Below the pieces are notes generated by a model. The model ran no database searches, was not told the origin of the DNA, and worked only from the letters and a program-made list of their open reading frames with translations. This document shows positions 46,219-54,471 of a DNA stretch of 64,000 nucleotides, one piece after another. How positions within the stretch are numbered: the stretch's first letter is position 1; every line of letters starts with the position of its first letter. The stretch is taken from contig LWTM01000069.1 of assembly GCA_002101205.1 (NCBI GenBank), forward strand, positions 9,851 through 73,850, in the 5' to 3' direction. This stretch comes from Cycloclasticus sp. symbiont of Poecilosclerida sp. N. Its GTDB lineage: Bacteria; Pseudomonadota; Gammaproteobacteria; Methylococcales; Cycloclasticaceae. The position numbers and the translations under genes are program-made.

Positions 46219-47601
46219 TTAACGAACCTTGCGGGCTTTTCGTGGTCGGCCTTTTACTTTGCCATTAGCTAAATAATTAAGCGCCTGCCGAACGGCTTCG
46301 TGCTCAAGAGCTACATAGCTTGAACGGTCAAAAATATCTATTTTGCCGATTTGCGCGCCTTGCAAGCCAGCATCACCGGTCAGTGCGCCTAAAATATCGC
46401 CGGGGCGAATTTTATCCTTACGGCCACCGTCTATTTGAATGGTGGCCATGGGGGGGTAAAGCTTATAACTAGTATCCAAATCAAGCGAGACCGGGCTATC
46501 GATTAAACAAGGCTTGCCTTGATATTGTTCAATAGCGTCAACACGAATTTGTTCGTGTTCAACAAACAGGCTCATTGCGATGCCTTTTTCACCCGCGCGC
46601 CCTGTTCGCCCGATGCGGTGCACATAAATTTCTGGGTTGCGTGGTAGTTCATAGTTAATCACTAAGCCGATGGATTTGATATCTAAACCACGGGCGGCAA
46701 CATCAGTAGCAACTAACACAGAGCAACTGTTGTTAGCAAAACGTACGAGTACCTGGTCGCGTTCACGCTGGTCTAAGTCACCGTGAATGGCAAGTGACTC
46801 AATGTTATTTTTTTGCAATAACTCGGCAACATCACGGCATTGCGCTTTGGTGTGGCAAAAAACAACGGCGGTATTGGGTCGATAGTGTTGAAATAAGCCT
46901 AATAGCGTATTATTACGCTCGTGTTTTTTCACTTGATAAAAAAGCTGTTCGATAATATTTTGTTCGTGATTTGACTCAACAGTTACCGTGATTGGATCGC
47001 GCTGAATAGAGCGACACATTTGTTTAATTTCATCTGGGTATGTTGCTGAAAACAATAAAGTTTGGCGCGATTTAGGTGTCTTGCCGATAATCTCTTCCAT
47101 CACATCACTAAAGCCCATGTCCAACATTCTATCGGCTTCATCTAGAACCAGAGTCTTTAGTTGGTCTATTTTTAGCGTGCGTTTTTTCAAGTGATCTTGA
47201 ACGCGCCCAGGTGTGCCAACAATAATATGTGCGCCATGCTCAAGCGAGCCGACTTGCGGACCAAAGGGTTTGCCGCCGCACAATAGCACCAGTTTAATAT
47301 TGGGCACGCTACGCGCCAGTTTACGAATCTCTTTACCCACTTGGTCTGCAAGTTCACGTGTGGGGCAAAGAACTAAGGCTTGTATGCCGAAAAAACGCGG
47401 GTTAACTTTATTCAACAAACCAATACCAAAGGCTGCTGTTTTACCACTGCCTGTTTTGGCTTGGGCAATAATGTCTTTGCCTTTTAGAATGTACGGTAAA
47501 CTTTGTGCCTGTACGGGCGTCATGGTTTTATACCCCAAAGAGGCTAGGTTTTTAACTTGCTCTAGTGATATGGACAGTGATTTAAAGGATAAGTCGGTCA
47601 C
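46219..47601 (-). CDS. dbpA: DEAD-box RNA helicase DbpA
   Basis: A 460-residue helicase with Q motif MTPVQAQSLPYILKGKDII, motif I AQAKTGSGKTAAFG, DEAD in VLDEADRMLDMGFSDV, SAT in LLFSATYP and HRIGRTGRAGEKGIA. The C-terminal domain (DKIRPGDILGALTGDAGLQG and onward) is the DbpA RNA-binding domain that recognises hairpin 92 of 23S rRNA, so it acts in 50S assembly. Start is GTG 47601, overlapping the end of the hopJ fossil. Confidence 0.94.
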   Translation of the reverse strand: MTDLSFKSLSISLEQVKNLASLGYKTMTPVQAQSLPYILKGKDIIAQAKTGSGKTAAFGIGLLNKVNPRFFGIQALVLCPTRELADQVGKEIRKLARSVPNIKLVLLCGGKPFGPQVGSLEHGAHIIVGTPGRVQDHLKKRTLKIDQLKTLVLDEADRMLDMGFSDVMEEIIGKTPKSRQTLLFSATYPDEIKQMCRSIQRDPITVTVESNHEQNIIEQLFYQVKKHERNNTLLGLFQHYRPNTAVVFCHTKAQCRDVAELLQKNNIESLAIHGDLDQRERDQVLVRFANNSCSVLVATDVAARGLDIKSIGLVINYELPRNPEIYVHRIGRTGRAGEKGIAMSLFVEHEQIRVDAIEQYQGKPCLIDSPVSLDLDTSYKLYPPMATIQIDGGRKDKIRPGDILGALTGDAGLQGAQIGKIDIFDRSSYVALEHEAVRQALNYLANGKVKGRPRKARKVR

Positions 47602-47900
47602 AGATTTACTCTCTTTCGGTTTGTTGTCAAATTGAAACCAGCCCAGCCCACTTGCATAAAGTTACGGGTGTTTTGATGCTCATTACCTACAGGCGTTGCT
47701 AATACAGCACGGCAAAATTCACCAAATAAAGCCAGCGTTTGTGGCTCGGTAAACTTATTTAACTGAGCACATGTAAATAACTTGCACGATCCGTTATTTT
47801 CGCCTGCTTCGTTACGTGTGCGGCCATTATTAAAACCTGTAGGGGTAAAATAGAAAACGCGTCGATAACACCCGCGGTGTCTCTAAATTGTAATGTTATT
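47598..47900 (-). pseudogene. HopJ-family protein remnant
   Basis: On the minus strand one frame reads ITLQFRDTAGVIDAF, then a one-base shift gives FYFTPTGFNNGRTRNEAGEN, NGSCKLFTCAQLNKFTEPQT, LFGEFCRAVLATPVG and HQNTRNFMQVGWAG to a TGA overlapping the dbpA start. This is the conserved body of HopJ-type proteins (about 110 residues). The initiator region is lost behind an in-frame stop near 47910. hopJ-like genes are common next to helicase genes in marine gammaproteobacteria. Here it is dead. Confidence 0.7.
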
Positions 47901-47936
47901 AATGCTTAGCGAAACTGTTTTATTTGTTTCATGTTA

Positions 47937-48455
47937 TTACAGGAGAGGGCTTGCTTTTATGCTGTAAAGGGCCTTAATTGAAATTCCTTTACTTACTAGA
48001 AAATTATCAAAATCTGTTTTTCTTGACCAAAGTTTTTTATGGTCAAAATTATTGGCTACTAGTTTTCCGTCGAGGCTATTTTCCTTAATGAATTTTTTTT
48101 TGAAGCCTTTAGCGCCTGTTTCAGGATAAAAGTCATTATATAAGGCACGGTTACTTTTTTTACCGCAGGCAAAACAAAGCTCATCCTCAAAGGTTTTATG
48201 TTGAACCATAAGGCAAATATTGTAAGGCTCTAGGCTAACTATATTTTTTGTAAATATAGATAAACAGGTGGTTTTATCTGTGTCAATAAAAAAGAATAAA
48301 TGGTCGTTTGTATTGATAACTCTTCTTAAATTGAACTTAGTCTCCCACAGGTTATATTTTCTTAAACGCCCAGGTTTTAAATGTTTTTTGCTTTGTAAGT
48401 GTCGTAGGAGTTTTTCTTCAGTTTCTCCTTCGTAAAAATAATGTGCCTTTTTCAT
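47937..48455 (-). CDS. Small TOPRIM-like protein, partner of the AAA ATPase
   Basis: A 172-residue protein that begins KKAHYFYEGETEEKLLRHL. The E-G pair at residues 9-10 and the hydrophobic strand HLFFFIDTDKT with Asp58 and Asp60 match the TOPRIM pattern (conserved Glu then D-x-D), and a further acidic KTFEDELC lies at 87-94. A TOPRIM metal-dependent nuclease fold is therefore likely, though shorter than OLD, PARIS AriB or RNase M5 proteins. Its ATG shares one base with the stop of the upstream ATPase (TAATG), so the two are co-translated. The family cannot be named. Confidence 0.6.
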   Translation of the reverse strand: MKKAHYFYEGETEEKLLRHLQSKKHLKPGRLRKYNLWETKFNLRRVINTNDHLFFFIDTDKTTCLSIFTKNIVSLEPYNICLMVQHKTFEDELCFACGKKSNRALYNDFYPETGAKGFKKKFIKENSLDGKLVANNFDHKKLWSRKTDFDNFLVSKGISIKALYSIKASPLL

Positions 48456-49579
48456 TACAATAAGGTTTCAATTTTTGTTGTATCAGGAAGCGTATTGAAA
48501 ACATCATTTTTCACATAACCCAGTAGATTTCGGTCGTTTTTGGTGTAGCCCATTTTTTCAGGGTGGGCTACTTTTACAAAAGGGTCTTTTCGCAAAAACA
48601 TATAGCTATGCGAAGGAAGGTTCATTTCTAGGATGTCATAATTGTGTGTTGTATAAAATAATTGAGCGTTCGAGCTTAACGCTTGAATCATTAAATTAAG
48701 AATGGCTACTTCCATTTCAGAATGTGAATATGCCATTTTTTCATCCAAAAAAAATGTTCCGTCACCTTGCGATATCATAAAGTGAATAAGTTGAGCAATA
48801 TCAATAGACTCTATAGTGCCTCTAGATAACCGTTGGGGAGTATTTATTTTTCCATCTTCAATGATAATTTCGTCATCGTTAACAAATTTAACAATGAAAG
48901 AGTTTTTGATGCTCCCTTTGATTTTATTGACGCGTGTTATTGATGGGTCGAATGTTTTGAAAATAGCTTCTAATAGCTTAATGTTTGGTGCTCGTTGAAC
49001 AAGTCTTATTGAGGTATTAAACTCACTGTATGTATAATTCCAAACGCTCTCACCATCTAATTCGTGGCCTAACATGCGTGCAACAGATTTAAACCCAGGG
49101 TTTTCAATACCATGCATTTCTTCTTGGTTATAGGTAAACGTAGGGGGCGAGTTTTCTATTTCGGCTAATGTTTGTTCAAGCGTATAACTCTTCTTTAATT
49201 TGCATACACTGTAGTTTTCAGAAACCAATTTATCGTGATCAAACTCAACTATTAGTTTATAAATTTTGTGCGCGCTTGGGGAAACATAGGTTACTTCAAC
49301 GCTGGCATTCCTTTCTTTATCGCATATTGTTTCGGGAACCCCTTTAAGGTCTCTACCGAGTAAATAATTGTTGATAAAGCACATTACTTTTCCAAGCGAT
49401 GTTTTACCTGAGGCATTTGCCCCCATAAGAATGCAGACTTTTTTGAATTTTATATTTGGGAAGTCATCTAAAAACTCACCCTCTAAGGTTGAGTCTTTTA
49501 TTTTTTTAGGATAGGTGAAATCAAACGCCGTATCCTTAAACATATAAAAATTATCTATTTTTAGCTTAAGGAAAATCAT
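48455..49579 (-). CDS. AAA/ABC-type ATPase of a two-gene module
   Basis: A 374-residue SMC/OLD-like ATPase without a long coiled coil. Walker A GANASGKTS at residues 53-61, signature-like RLSRGTIES around 250-258, Walker B GTFFLDEK with D279/E280, and the H-loop YTTHNYDILE with H312. Such AAA_15/AAA_21 proteins act as phage sensors or switches in OLD, Septu, PARIS and retron-associated systems. The partner downstream is a TOPRIM-like protein, resembling a split OLD nuclease or PARIS pair but with a smaller effector. Low-GC composition and isolated location suggest acquisition by transfer. Confidence 0.75.
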   Translation of the reverse strand: MIFLKLKIDNFYMFKDTAFDFTYPKKIKDSTLEGEFLDDFPNIKFKKVCILMGANASGKTSLGKVMCFINNYLLGRDLKGVPETICDKERNASVEVTYVSPSAHKIYKLIVEFDHDKLVSENYSVCKLKKSYTLEQTLAEIENSPPTFTYNQEEMHGIENPGFKSVARMLGHELDGESVWNYTYSEFNTSIRLVQRAPNIKLLEAIFKTFDPSITRVNKIKGSIKNSFIVKFVNDDEIIIEDGKINTPQRLSRGTIESIDIAQLIHFMISQGDGTFFLDEKMAYSHSEMEVAILNLMIQALSSNAQLFYTTHNYDILEMNLPSHSYMFLRKDPFVKVAHPEKMGYTKNDRNLLGYVKNDVFNTLPDTTKIETLL

Positions 49580-49859
49580 TGTTTTTTCCGATATTTGGAT
49601 TTAAACCAACTGTATTATAGGTGCTATTCAAGAAGAATAACAAGAAGCCTTTAATTTAGTGTGTATTAAGCTGGGTACTAACTTGGTGATTTAACTTTAA
49701 TCGATAAGTTGCGCAGTGCTCAAACAAGTATTTCACTGGTTCAAATAATAAGGAATCTCTGCATAACATCTCAATTTTATCGTTAAACACGTGTCTTTGT
49801 CTTATGTTCTATATTTTCTGCATGAATACGCAGTTATGTCCTTAATTCAAGCTGATTTT
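49580..49859. other. Upstream region of the ATPase-TOPRIM module
   Basis: AT-rich non-coding sequence that should hold the promoter of the minus-strand module. A TATTATAGG-like -10 candidate (coding strand CTATAATA) lies near 49612-49620. No open frame. Confidence 0.35.
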
Positions 49860-50092
49860 AATCGTTTCTTAGATTTTCGTTGAAGCAGTTCAGTTTACCC
49901 TGCGTTTCTTCTGAGCAGTTGTACGCAGCATCCGCAGATAAAGTGCTCTCATCATCTAACAATAGTGTATCTCACTCCTAACTATCATGGACATTGCCTA
50001 GAGTGACGCTTTAGCGATGAATAAACCGTCTTCATCAACACCGGTATGAACAGAAAAACCATAGGTGGCCTTCTTGTTAGCTATATGGTTTC
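49860..50092 (-). pseudogene. IS5-like transposase remnant
   Basis: On the minus strand: NKKATYGFSVHTGVDEDGLF, then frames reading GNVHDS, LLLDDESTLSADAAYNCSEE. This is the middle of an IS5/IS1182-type DDE transposase (YGxxxHxGVDxDG and later xxLxADxAY). Several stops and shifts occur. Only about 75 codons remain. Confidence 0.7.
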
Positions 50093-50725: not shown

Positions 50726-53700
50726 CTAAAACTTAAGGTCGACACGTAACTGTATGCTGTCGTCCGTTTGTTTATGCTCGCCTATTAAGTCTAGGTTCAA
50801 TCTGGAATCTATTGCCCAGCGCGCGCCTATATTATAGCCTTGCGTGTCGTTTGTCATATTTAAGCCCGCGTAAGGGGTCAATAAGCCACGGCCAAAGAAC
50901 CCAGGTAGTCCGTAACCTAGCTCGGTGTTTAACTGTAGGCTTCTACTGTCGTTGCTATCCTCATCGTTTGCGTAGTCAGTGACGGCTGCTGGCTGCCATA
51001 TTCTATCGGCAACATTGCTTGGGGTGTCGCCCCAGGCTGGTTGTAGGCTTAACCACAGACCTTGACCGCTGCTGCTAGCTTGGTATTTGACCAGACCGCT
51101 GAGCCCCCATTCTTTGTAATTTGACTCGTGTGCCAGTAAACCGTGCGCACGTAGTTCCATTTCCAGCCCCTGTGGGTTGCTGTAACGGTAGCTACCTGCT
51201 AACTCTACGCCACCACCTGTCTCGCCACTGCCGTCGTCATAGCGTATTCCCAGTTCTACAGATGGGCTGATGCTAGCACCGCTGGCTAGGGTGTGGTTAT
51301 GGCTACCTTCTAACGCCATACGGTAACGATGAGCATCTATGGACAATGCTTTGGCATTAGCTAGGTTGCCCTTGTCCACCTTAATATTAGACAGTGAGAC
51401 CTCGCCTTTAAGGCGCAAGGTGGTGGTGCCAGACAGATTTAGCCAGCTATTACTGGATAATAAATCACCACTACCGCCAAAGGTTAGACTGTATAACTCG
51501 GTGTCACGGCTGCTTTTGGTTTCGACGGTATTGATTTTATCGCTAATTTCTACCTCGCCTTGACCATAGCCGAATGTGCCCCATATCCGTCCGCTTTGTG
51601 ATAAGTCATAACCAAGATAGGGATGGATGCTGGTTAGCGTATTGGTCAAAGTGCCTTTGCTATTATTTGCACTATCATTCTCATCATCGCGTTTATAGTC
51701 AATATCGCCTTCGCTGTAAGACACAGCGGCGCCTGCGACTAGGTTTCGGCTTAGACGGGCATCAATACCCACGCTACCACCGACTATCTCACCTTCCCAG
51801 TCAACACCAGAGGTATCATCCGAAAGATTAAGGTAATCACCACTGCCCCATAGCGTCATGTTATTAGCACCGTAATTATTATCCCCCGCCACGTTCAGCG
51901 GTATGAGGAAAGAGGAATTACTAAGCATTTGCTTAATATCCAAGCCGTCTTGTAACGCGGTGCGAGCATTATTACTGATGAGCTCTTGCAAGGTTGAGCT
52001 GCCGCCTAGATTAAGGCTAGTGTCTGTGCTTGCAGAGGCGTCTAATGCTTGGTCAATACGGTTGCTGATATTGTCCACTGTTATTTTTGTTGTTGCTCTG
52101 AGCAGTTGTGGTAAGACCGCGTTTAATACTTGTGTTTCGGCAGTCGTATCGGCGATGGTGATGGTGAAAGTCGCTCTGCTGCTTGCGTCTGCACCGTCCG
52201 TTACGGTATAGGTTAAGGTTACCGCTGCTGCCGTGCTGGTTGGGGTGCCTGATAGGGTGCGGGTGCCTGAGGCAAACGAGAATCCGGTCGGCAAAGTGCC
52301 CGTTAGGCGGTACGTGTAACTGCCATCACCACCCGTTGCCGCTGGTAGTATCACGTTGGTTGCTGCGCCCACTACGTAAACCTGATCCGCTGGCTTCGGC
52401 AGGGCTAAGGCGGTAGCGACGGTGACGGTGACGGTGAAAGTCTCAGGGATGCTTGCGCCTGCACCGTCCGTTACGGTATAGGTTAAGGTTACCGCTGCTG
52501 CCGTGCTGTCTGGGGTGCCTGATAGGGTGCGGGTCCTAGGGTCTCGGTCAAACATTAATCCATTCACCGTCGTACTAACATAGTCGTTTGTCCCGTCCAC
52601 TAGAGTGTACGTGTAACTGCCATCACCACCCGTTGCCGCGGGTAGTATCAGGCGGTGATTGCCATACCCTCTGTGTAAACCTGATTCGCTGGCTCTGGCT
52701 CCGGCAGGGCTAAGGCGGTAGGTGCATTGCTAATTACGGCGAAAGGTGAAAAACTATCTGCATTGCCACAGACGAGGGTGCCCTCAACCCGCTGGGATGG
52801 TAACAATTCCCAAGCAGCTTCAGTGCCAGTCCCAGCGGCGTGATACAAACCTGGGTTGGCTATGCCGCCGTGAGGTAGGCAGATGGCTACAGGGTTGCTA
52901 TTACTGATACCAGTCACATCAATATCCACTAGGCTACGTAGGGTGCCCGCGACTGTCTCATCGGGTTGAGCGTCTGGCACGTCTGGCGCGTCCCTTTCAG
53001 CCCTAAGGACGGTAACCGTAGCGCCACTCAGTCCCCTTGGTAGAGTGATGGTTCCACCTGTGGCTTCAATATCAACAGCAGTATCACCAACCGTTCGCCC
53101 TAAGGTGATTTCTGCCAAGCCGTCTGTGTTAGTAGCGGAAGTCGCCGTTACTACTCTCTGAGCATTGTAAGTGTTTGGCACACTCACGGTGAAAGTCGCA
53201 CTGCTGCTTGCTCCTGTACGGTCCGTTACGGTATAGGTTAAGGTTGCCTCTTCTGCCGTGCTGTCTGGGGTGCCTGTTAGGCTTAGGCTGTATCGGGTAA
53301 ACAGTAATCTGGTCGGCAAAGTGCCCGTTAGGCTGTACTCGCGACTGGCGACATCACCACCACCCGTTGCCTCGGGTAGTGTTAACCTGGTGATTCCTAT
53401 ACCCGCTACGTAAACCTGATTGGCTGGTGCGGTTAGTGTCAATGGCGCTGCTACGCTTGGGTCAACAGCGAGGACGACAATATTCACTGTAGCAGGTGCT
53501 GATCTGACATCAGCAGCATTAAAGGCGACTAAACTAAAGGTTAGCGTGGTATCTACGCTAATATCGAGCGGCGCCGTGAAGGTTGGACTCAGTCCCGTGT
53601 CACCGCTCAAGCTTACCCTCGGCGCACCATCATTTACCTGCGTCCACAGAAATTTCACGCCGTCTGCGGAGCTACCAGTCCCGTCTAAGCTTACTGTGGC

Positions 53701-54471
53701 ACCTTTGACAATCCCGGTCTGTTCAATACCCGCATTAGCCTCGGGTGGTGCTCCTATGCTGGGATTACCGACTGTAACCATTACGCTATCAGGTTCCGAA
53801 ATCGCACCTGTTTCGTCGGTAACTATCAAGTTGAACGTGTAAATGATGTTAGTAGTGCCACTTCCCGGCGGTGCAGTGAAAGTTGGGTTTACAACAGAAG
53901 TAGAAAATGATACAGACTCACCGTTGATAATAACACTCCACGCATAAGTAAGATCCTCGCCTTCGGGGTCGCTACTGGCGCTACCGTCCAAAGTAACGGT
54001 TGCACCTTGGGGATAAATGCCGTCATGATCGGCGCCCGCACGGGCAATCGGGGCATCATTATCTGCTGTTACGTCAATGGTTACGGCCTGGGGTATGGAA
54101 AAGTTCCCATCACTATCTATGGCATTAAAAGTAAACCCTATCCTGGCGTCAGCAAGCAATTCTGGTACTATAAAAGTTGCCGTATCGCCGCTCTCACTCA
54201 AGGTCAAGGGAATGTTTGCTGCCAGGTCAAAACCTTGGCTCTGCCGCCATTGGTAAGTTAGAACGCCGCCGTCAGAGTCGCTACTGCCACTGCCGTCTAA
54301 GATTACTGTATCACCCTCGTTAGCAGTCGTCGGTGCTACGAGAACAGCGATTGCGGTTGCCTGTGCGCTAGTGCTGAATAAAAAAACCGATAGCAGTAAC
54401 GCAGTAGCGGCAATAAGACCGTGAGCTGCGTGTGGGGTAGATATTTGTTGAGATAATGGTTGTGCAGACAT
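50726..54471 (-). pseudogene. Large Ig-repeat autotransporter, split by a one-base deletion
   Basis: Two frames make one protein of about 1,240 residues. Frame 1 (54471-52648) begins with a signal peptide (AALLLSV-type core near residues 20-38), PKD-like and Ig-like domains with TANEGDTVILDGSGSSDSDG and repeated TLTYTVTD modules. Frame 2 (52640-50726) holds more Ig-like modules (GTLPTGFSFASGTRTLSGTP), a helical linker (VDNISNRIDQALDASAS) and the C-terminal autotransporter beta-barrel ending in Phe. At 52651-52656 the coding strand reads ATCACCGCCTGATA. One more C would give ITRLILP, matching the paralogous repeat. The deletion makes it null unless the deletion is reversible or a read error. 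Confidence 0.8.

Follow-up and report, generated by a model that had tools for sequence, protein, structure and literature searches.

An OLD/Rad50-type ATPase paired with a very small TOPRIM-like protein in a Cycloclasticus symbiont: a candidate split OLD-type anti-phage system

In the PARIS system, the ATPase AriA holds the effector AriB and frees it in response to phage proteins, and AriB cuts tRNA (PMC12409363). PARIS has been proposed as class 4 of OLD since its domains are found on separate genes (PMC10568477). AbiLii is the toxic half of AbiL, and RloB is related to the OLD TOPRIM domain (PMC10440598). A BREX survey describes pairs of an OLD-ABC ATPase and a nuclease as widespread (PMC12839542). 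The TOPRIM domains of OLD cleave DNA, and the OLD active site is organized like that of RNase M5. Here, we analyzed a 64,000-nucleotide stretch (the window) of contig LWTM01000069.1 from the Cycloclasticus sp. symbiont of Poecilosclerida sp. N, in which the gene for an OLD/Rad50-like ABC ATPase is followed by that for a TOPRIM-like partner of 172 residues.

With a probability of roughly 70%, the pair is a split OLD-type anti-phage system, in which an OLD/Rad50-type ABC ATPase and a predicted TOPRIM nuclease together abort infection. Its features, taken from the open reading frame (ORF) calls and the sequence, are as follows.

48455..49579, minus strand: OLD/Rad50-like ABC ATPase, 374 amino acids (aa), ATG start, upstream gene; probably senses infection and holds the effector.
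47937..48455, minus strand: minimal TOPRIM-like partner, 172 aa, ATG start, downstream gene; predicted metal-dependent nuclease effector.
48455..48455, minus strand: base shared by the ATPase stop (TAA) and the partner start (ATG), in TAATG.

An earlier note on this DNA had described two ORFs overlapping by one base, and both were found where it had placed them. No fusion of ATPase and TOPRIM was seen, the ORFs being separate in the window and in the viral loci that hold both genes.

The pair is a conserved, mobile two-gene unit. Searches returned 366 relatives of the ATPase; for the partner, a single-sequence search gave 16 (itself included) and a profile 74, the full-length ones nearly all 164 to 184 aa long. 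Viral contigs were fetched with the ATPase profile alone (n = 31, including several near-copies), and in 30 of the 31 a partner homologue lies directly downstream on the same strand; the remaining contig (L021) stops immediately after the ATPase. The partner profile was built partly from partners at these same viral loci, and the independent evidence is the adjacency of the ORFs rather than the score. The pair is carried by Acinetobacter phage Ab105-3phi and by the gut phage NatCom_17901, in the latter between the portal and terminase genes and on the opposite strand, with both products annotated as hypothetical proteins in each phage. It is also found on a plasmid of Acinetobacter piscicola, annotated as an ATP-binding and a hypothetical protein. 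These phage and plasmid copies were reached through the ATPase; the window partner gave no match in single-sequence searches of the phage and plasmid collections, nor did a viral scan with its close relatives.

Across the class the pair is rare, with the partner in 3 of 369 genomes and the ATPase in 2. One of these three partners (G169, locus L014) belongs to a locus where both genes are decayed, the partner being interrupted by stop codons. At another locus, a phage-borne copy (L017, 6088-6354), the ATPase is intact and the partner is internally deleted to 88 aa, which would fit a partner that is the harmful half of the pair.

The ATPase contains a Walker A motif GANASGKT (residues 53 to 60), the signature LSRGT (251 to 255), the Walker B motif FLDE (D279, E280), and an H-loop TTHN (H312). 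All four had been recognized in the earlier note, and residues G53, N55, G58, K59, S252, G254, T255, D279, E280, and H312 proved invariant in 37 aligned rows. The AlphaFold2 (AF2) model reached a mean predicted local distance difference test score (pLDDT) of 89.0. Compared with the PDB using Foldseek, it matched Rad50 best (7e−11), followed by chains of retrons and of Septu PtuA, which start at about 2e−9. Motifs, model, and structural matches agree on an ABC/Rad50-like head. By sequence, the best PDB hit had an E value of 0.082, and the family profile found no match there. A housekeeping or phage DNA-processing pair comparable to Rad50-Mre11 or SbcCD could also be considered beside the Rad50 match; we regard this as very improbable.

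Among the PADLOC models, AbiLi (PDLC02335) fitted the ATPase best, with 106 bits over nearly the full model length, versus only 13 to 35 bits for the AriA, PtuA, MAD3, and NsnB models. Profile comparison by hhalign gave the same order, 104 for AbiLi versus 51 for AriA. Since AbiLi, not AriA, is the named model nearest to the ATPase, AbiL is the nearest named relative of the pair. The earlier note had seen the logic of OLD and PARIS here; the combination of an ATPase with a TOPRIM-like protein stands, and the place of nearest relative passes from PARIS to AbiL.

For the partner, 33 aligned rows show no variation at residues E9, G10, D58, D60, N71, Q85, E90, E92, and K119 and almost none at E13, a degree of conservation that, judged from the alignment, is far beyond chance. 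The order E9/E13, D58-x-D60, E90/E92, and K119 is that of the two-metal-plus-lysine active site of OLD, as in Bp OLD. The AF2 model (pLDDT 91.7; predicted template modeling score 0.87) has the topology of a TOPRIM fold, and the acids lie where such a fold would have them. A TOPRIM-like protein had been proposed earlier from the glutamate followed by D-x-D, and the structure predicted for the partner alone is in keeping with this, giving no sign of a non-TOPRIM fold. Pfam, PADLOC, and NCBIfam gave no hit to the partner at E ≤ 1. Its best sequence hit in the PDB was unrelated (E value of 0.47), and the family profile matched nothing there.

The comparison with OLD, AriB, and RloB profiles that the earlier note had suggested placed the OLD TOPRIM domains first. 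Against these domains (11 of the 15 loci fetched) the partner profile scored 40.6 (E value of 1.4e−5), with a maximum of 15.5 in 20 shuffles. RloB gave 31.1 to 38.5, above every shuffle. The values for AriB (three-protein set; 21.5, shuffle maximum of 21.0) and DUF3226 (22.5, shuffle maximum of 19.7) were weak, and the 33.9 obtained with DUF4276 covered only 20 columns. The reference TOPRIM-like families themselves barely match each other by this method (OLD-RloB, 16.3; DUF4276-RloB, 23.9; DUF3226-RloB, 17.1), and a low score such as that of AriB therefore does not exclude kinship. At the level of profiles, the partner thus appears closest to the OLD TOPRIM domains and then to RloB, and the link with AriB is not convincing.

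With OLD classes 1 and 2 and GajA of Gabija, the partner shares the order E-x3-E, DxD, K and its best effector profile match. It differs from them in being a separate TOPRIM protein of 172 aa, and no UvrD-like partner was recognized beside the pair; the adjacent dbpA belongs to the chromosomal site. As in PARIS, the ABC ATPase and TOPRIM effector are encoded by separate adjacent genes. Here, however, the partner has no match to DUF4435 (PF14491), or to any other Pfam family at E ≤ 1, and is shorter than the three AriB-type proteins fetched (282 to 335 aa), while the ATPase reaches only 19.2 to 22 bits on the AriA models and falls in a separate clade (see below). The pair is thus not PARIS. Septu is distinguished by its HNH effector PtuB: the partner has no HNH match in Pfam (E ≤ 1) and shows TOPRIM topology instead. 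The ATPase and the partner match phrog_5836 (197 bits) and phrog_10204 (67 bits), respectively, both labeled as families of unknown function and without a mechanism.

The pair might alternatively be a far-diverged AbiL, that is, an AbiLi ATPase with a shrunken AbiLii (RloB-type) effector. The gene order, ATPase and then a small TOPRIM-type effector, is the same, AbiLi is the best model for the ATPase, the RloB profile scores exceed the shuffles, and two kin of the partner (L023 and L016) reach AbiLii with 19.5 and 15.9 bits. The AbiLi model is, however, unspecific: it matched in 145 of 299 genomes, a search in which the window ATPase obtained 112.5 bits, and it also recognizes ATPases paired with other effectors. 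Eight ATPases scoring 91 to 103 bits on AbiLi adjoin DUF4276 proteins (L168-L175), loci that were selected because both searches matched side by side. Such OLD-ABC and DUF4276 pairs recur across the phylum, with DUF4276 in 30 of 120 genomes. They resemble our pair in being two-gene units of an ATPase and a small VEG-motif effector within a similar AbiLi score band, and differ in the effector family and the ATPase clade. We know of no name for them.

The effectors, too, separate our pair from AbiL. The seven partners at the strongest AbiLi loci (L049-L053, L055, and L067) are all RloB proteins (PF13707, 127 to 144 bits) of 214 to 226 aa; they are the Pfam-tested 7 of 20 AbiLi loci, and several of the other 13 look unlike RloB at their starts. 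Two RloB partners gave 91.8 and 97.4 bits on AbiLii, whereas the 172-aa window partner matches neither AbiLii nor PF13707 at E ≤ 1, lacks by eye the PCFExWLLLHF block of RloB, and scores higher with OLD TOPRIM domains than with RloB (40.6 versus 31.1). Membership in AbiL was rejected on this lack of an RloB or AbiLii match and on the ATPase tree, and we consider a diverged AbiL unlikely. A second OLD-ABC ATPase was observed in the assembly of the window itself (L069, G000:C49, 1273-2996), with 396 aa and 235 to 242 bits on AbiLi. Its overlapping partner is an RloB-like protein of 177 aa that scores 31.0 bits on PF13707, just below the cutoff, and is a shortened RloB.

A tree was built from 32 ATPases, each with an observed partner. 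In it, those paired with small TOPRIM proteins (support of 100/99), RloB (99/97), DUF4276 (97/94), and AriB (100/99) each fall on one side of a branch. The window ATPase thus lies in a clade apart from the RloB-paired ATPases, on a long stem. A preceding tree of 33 ATPases agrees (small TOPRIM, 98/97); it holds 10 "smallTOPRIM" rows whose neighbors were not seen, and we rely on the 32-ATPase tree instead. Both trees have a midpoint root for drawing, carry a long-branch warning, and contain no OLD, GajA, or PtuA ATPases. Because the four partner groups separate, effector type and ATPase lineage appear to go together, and by this phylogeny the small-TOPRIM ATPases form a lineage of their own among those sampled.

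By analogy with PARIS, the ATPase would be made first, oligomerize on ATP, and hold the effector, whose translation would be coupled to that of the ATPase through the shared base of TAATG. A phage product or a phage-caused change would then alter the ATPase, so that the TOPRIM protein is freed or switched on. E9/D58/D60 and E13/E90/E92 would bind two metal ions, and K119 would serve as the catalytic lysine. Nucleic acid would be cut, translation or replication would stop, and phage production would fail. Nuclease activity, a complex, a trigger, a substrate, and an abortive outcome are likely on this analogy.

For the substrate, we lean slightly toward RNA, probably tRNA, over DNA, because AriB, one split TOPRIM effector whose substrate has been described, is a tRNase. 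The same architecture with a DNA nuclease, as in OLD, is a serious possibility, at somewhat less than even odds: the closest profile match and the weak structural match are both to the OLD TOPRIM domains, which are described as cleaving DNA. The RNase M5-like organization of the OLD active site and the tRNA cleavage described for AriB (PMC12409363) speak against it.

Some observations weigh against a split OLD-type defense system. The structural search linked the partner only weakly to the OLD TOPRIM domains, and Foldseek returned nothing at E ≤ 1e−3 among the PDB and viral models, a result that does not exclude unlisted families; AriB was not among the structural matches listed, which proves nothing. 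Moreover, we infer the defense role from architecture, mobility, and context. The candidate unnamed defense module of the earlier note stands to this extent: the pair is not PARIS, the AbiL effector models fail, and its defense part carries the qualification just given. No paper describing or naming the pair was found in the open-license literature, and the accessible part of an E. coli functional-selection paper (PMC9519451) makes no mention of TOPRIM.

The pair fits none of the named defense families tested. What is new about it is its effector family and its ATPase lineage; the principle is known. A more specific proposal is put forward tentatively, with odds just short of even: the pair would belong to a separate class of split OLD immunity that has no name and occurs in widely differing hosts, on their chromosomes and plasmids as well as on phages. 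Its effector would be the smallest free-standing TOPRIM nuclease of the known ATPase-TOPRIM defenses, a bare core locked by the ATPase and released on infection to cut tRNA. If so, ATPase-TOPRIM immunity has drawn on one or more effector families beyond those of the named systems tested here. A minimal effector of 170 residues, near the catalytic core, would then be available for studying which event releases a TOPRIM nuclease from its ATPase and which substrate is cut. Carriage on phage contigs would make the pair, unnamed in the defense library used, a likely player in phage-phage competition.

The chromosomal copies in the genus share one insertion site, of which the window retains the following.

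46219..47601, minus strand: dbpA (DEAD-box helicase; Pfam DbpA, 86.7 bits), conserved flank of the insertion site.
About 47640..47930, minus strand: remnant of a broken hopJ-family gene (by eye and by position in sister loci L127, L128, and L129), marking the insertion site, outside the module.

Of the 18 genomes examined in the genus, 17 have dbpA and 4 have the partner (G006, G011, G010, where the contig ends inside the partner, and G000, the assembly of the window). The locus pairs L008/L127, L009/L129, and L012/L128 are apparently the same contigs twice, with lengths of 144523, 5318, and 8167, respectively. In all four carriers the partner lies just upstream of a hopJ-like gene and dbpA, the former being reduced to the remnant in the window. 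Sister genomes have the hopJ-like gene intact between pair and dbpA, and the L127 copy matches PF08888 with 152.7 bits. In 11 inspected genomes of the 14 without a partner match, an EF-P-like gene, a hopJ-like gene, and dbpA are consecutive and the pair is absent, the genes being named by likeness and only the G011 copies having been searched against Pfam. Upstream of the pair, the window differs from the sister genomes. In G011 (L127, G011:C14, 1359-4112), the EF-P-like gene and the pair are separated by a gene for a restriction-modification protein of the MmeI type, which has 917 aa and matches PF20473 (309 bits) and another four MmeI domains; the site may be a small defense hot spot of the genus.

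This setting bears on whether the pair is instead a toxin-antitoxin or addiction module that stabilizes prophages and plasmids, with an ATPase that neutralizes the TOPRIM toxin without specific phage sensing. The presence of the pair in phages and viral contigs and on a plasmid is consistent with such a role, as are the order of the genes, ATPase first, and the AAA-neutralized TOPRIM_OLD pairs that turned up in a toxin-antitoxin network screen, as reported in PMC10440598. Against it, the chromosomal copies occupy one site in the genus, where no mobile genes were recognized among the ORFs listed, most of them not searched; a large ATPase complete in its ABC motifs makes an expensive plain antitoxin; and the adjacent MmeI restriction-modification protein suggests defense. 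We judge an addiction module to be improbable.

The transposase and pseudogene fossils said earlier to flank the pair were broadly confirmed, with the hopJ remnant and a repeat added; the transposase part depends on ORF likeness by eye. The intergenic repeat (49757-49879) has nine further copies of more than 110 bases at 82 to 89% identity elsewhere in the assembly and no match in the other 17 genus genomes at E ≤ 0.001. The segment 49902-50080 has matches in four sister genomes and at other places in the assembly. Short ORFs in the matched stretches resemble, by eye, an insertion sequence (IS) transposase, and the segment is likely an IS fossil. That the pair is transposon cargo was considered and set aside, as only nearby repeats and remnants were found, and neither a transposase gene nor terminal repeats could be shown for the pair. 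Further along the window (50726-54471), two consecutive minus-strand ORFs of 624 and 607 aa have similar, repeat-rich sequences and may be the parts of a single, interrupted gene for a large surface protein.
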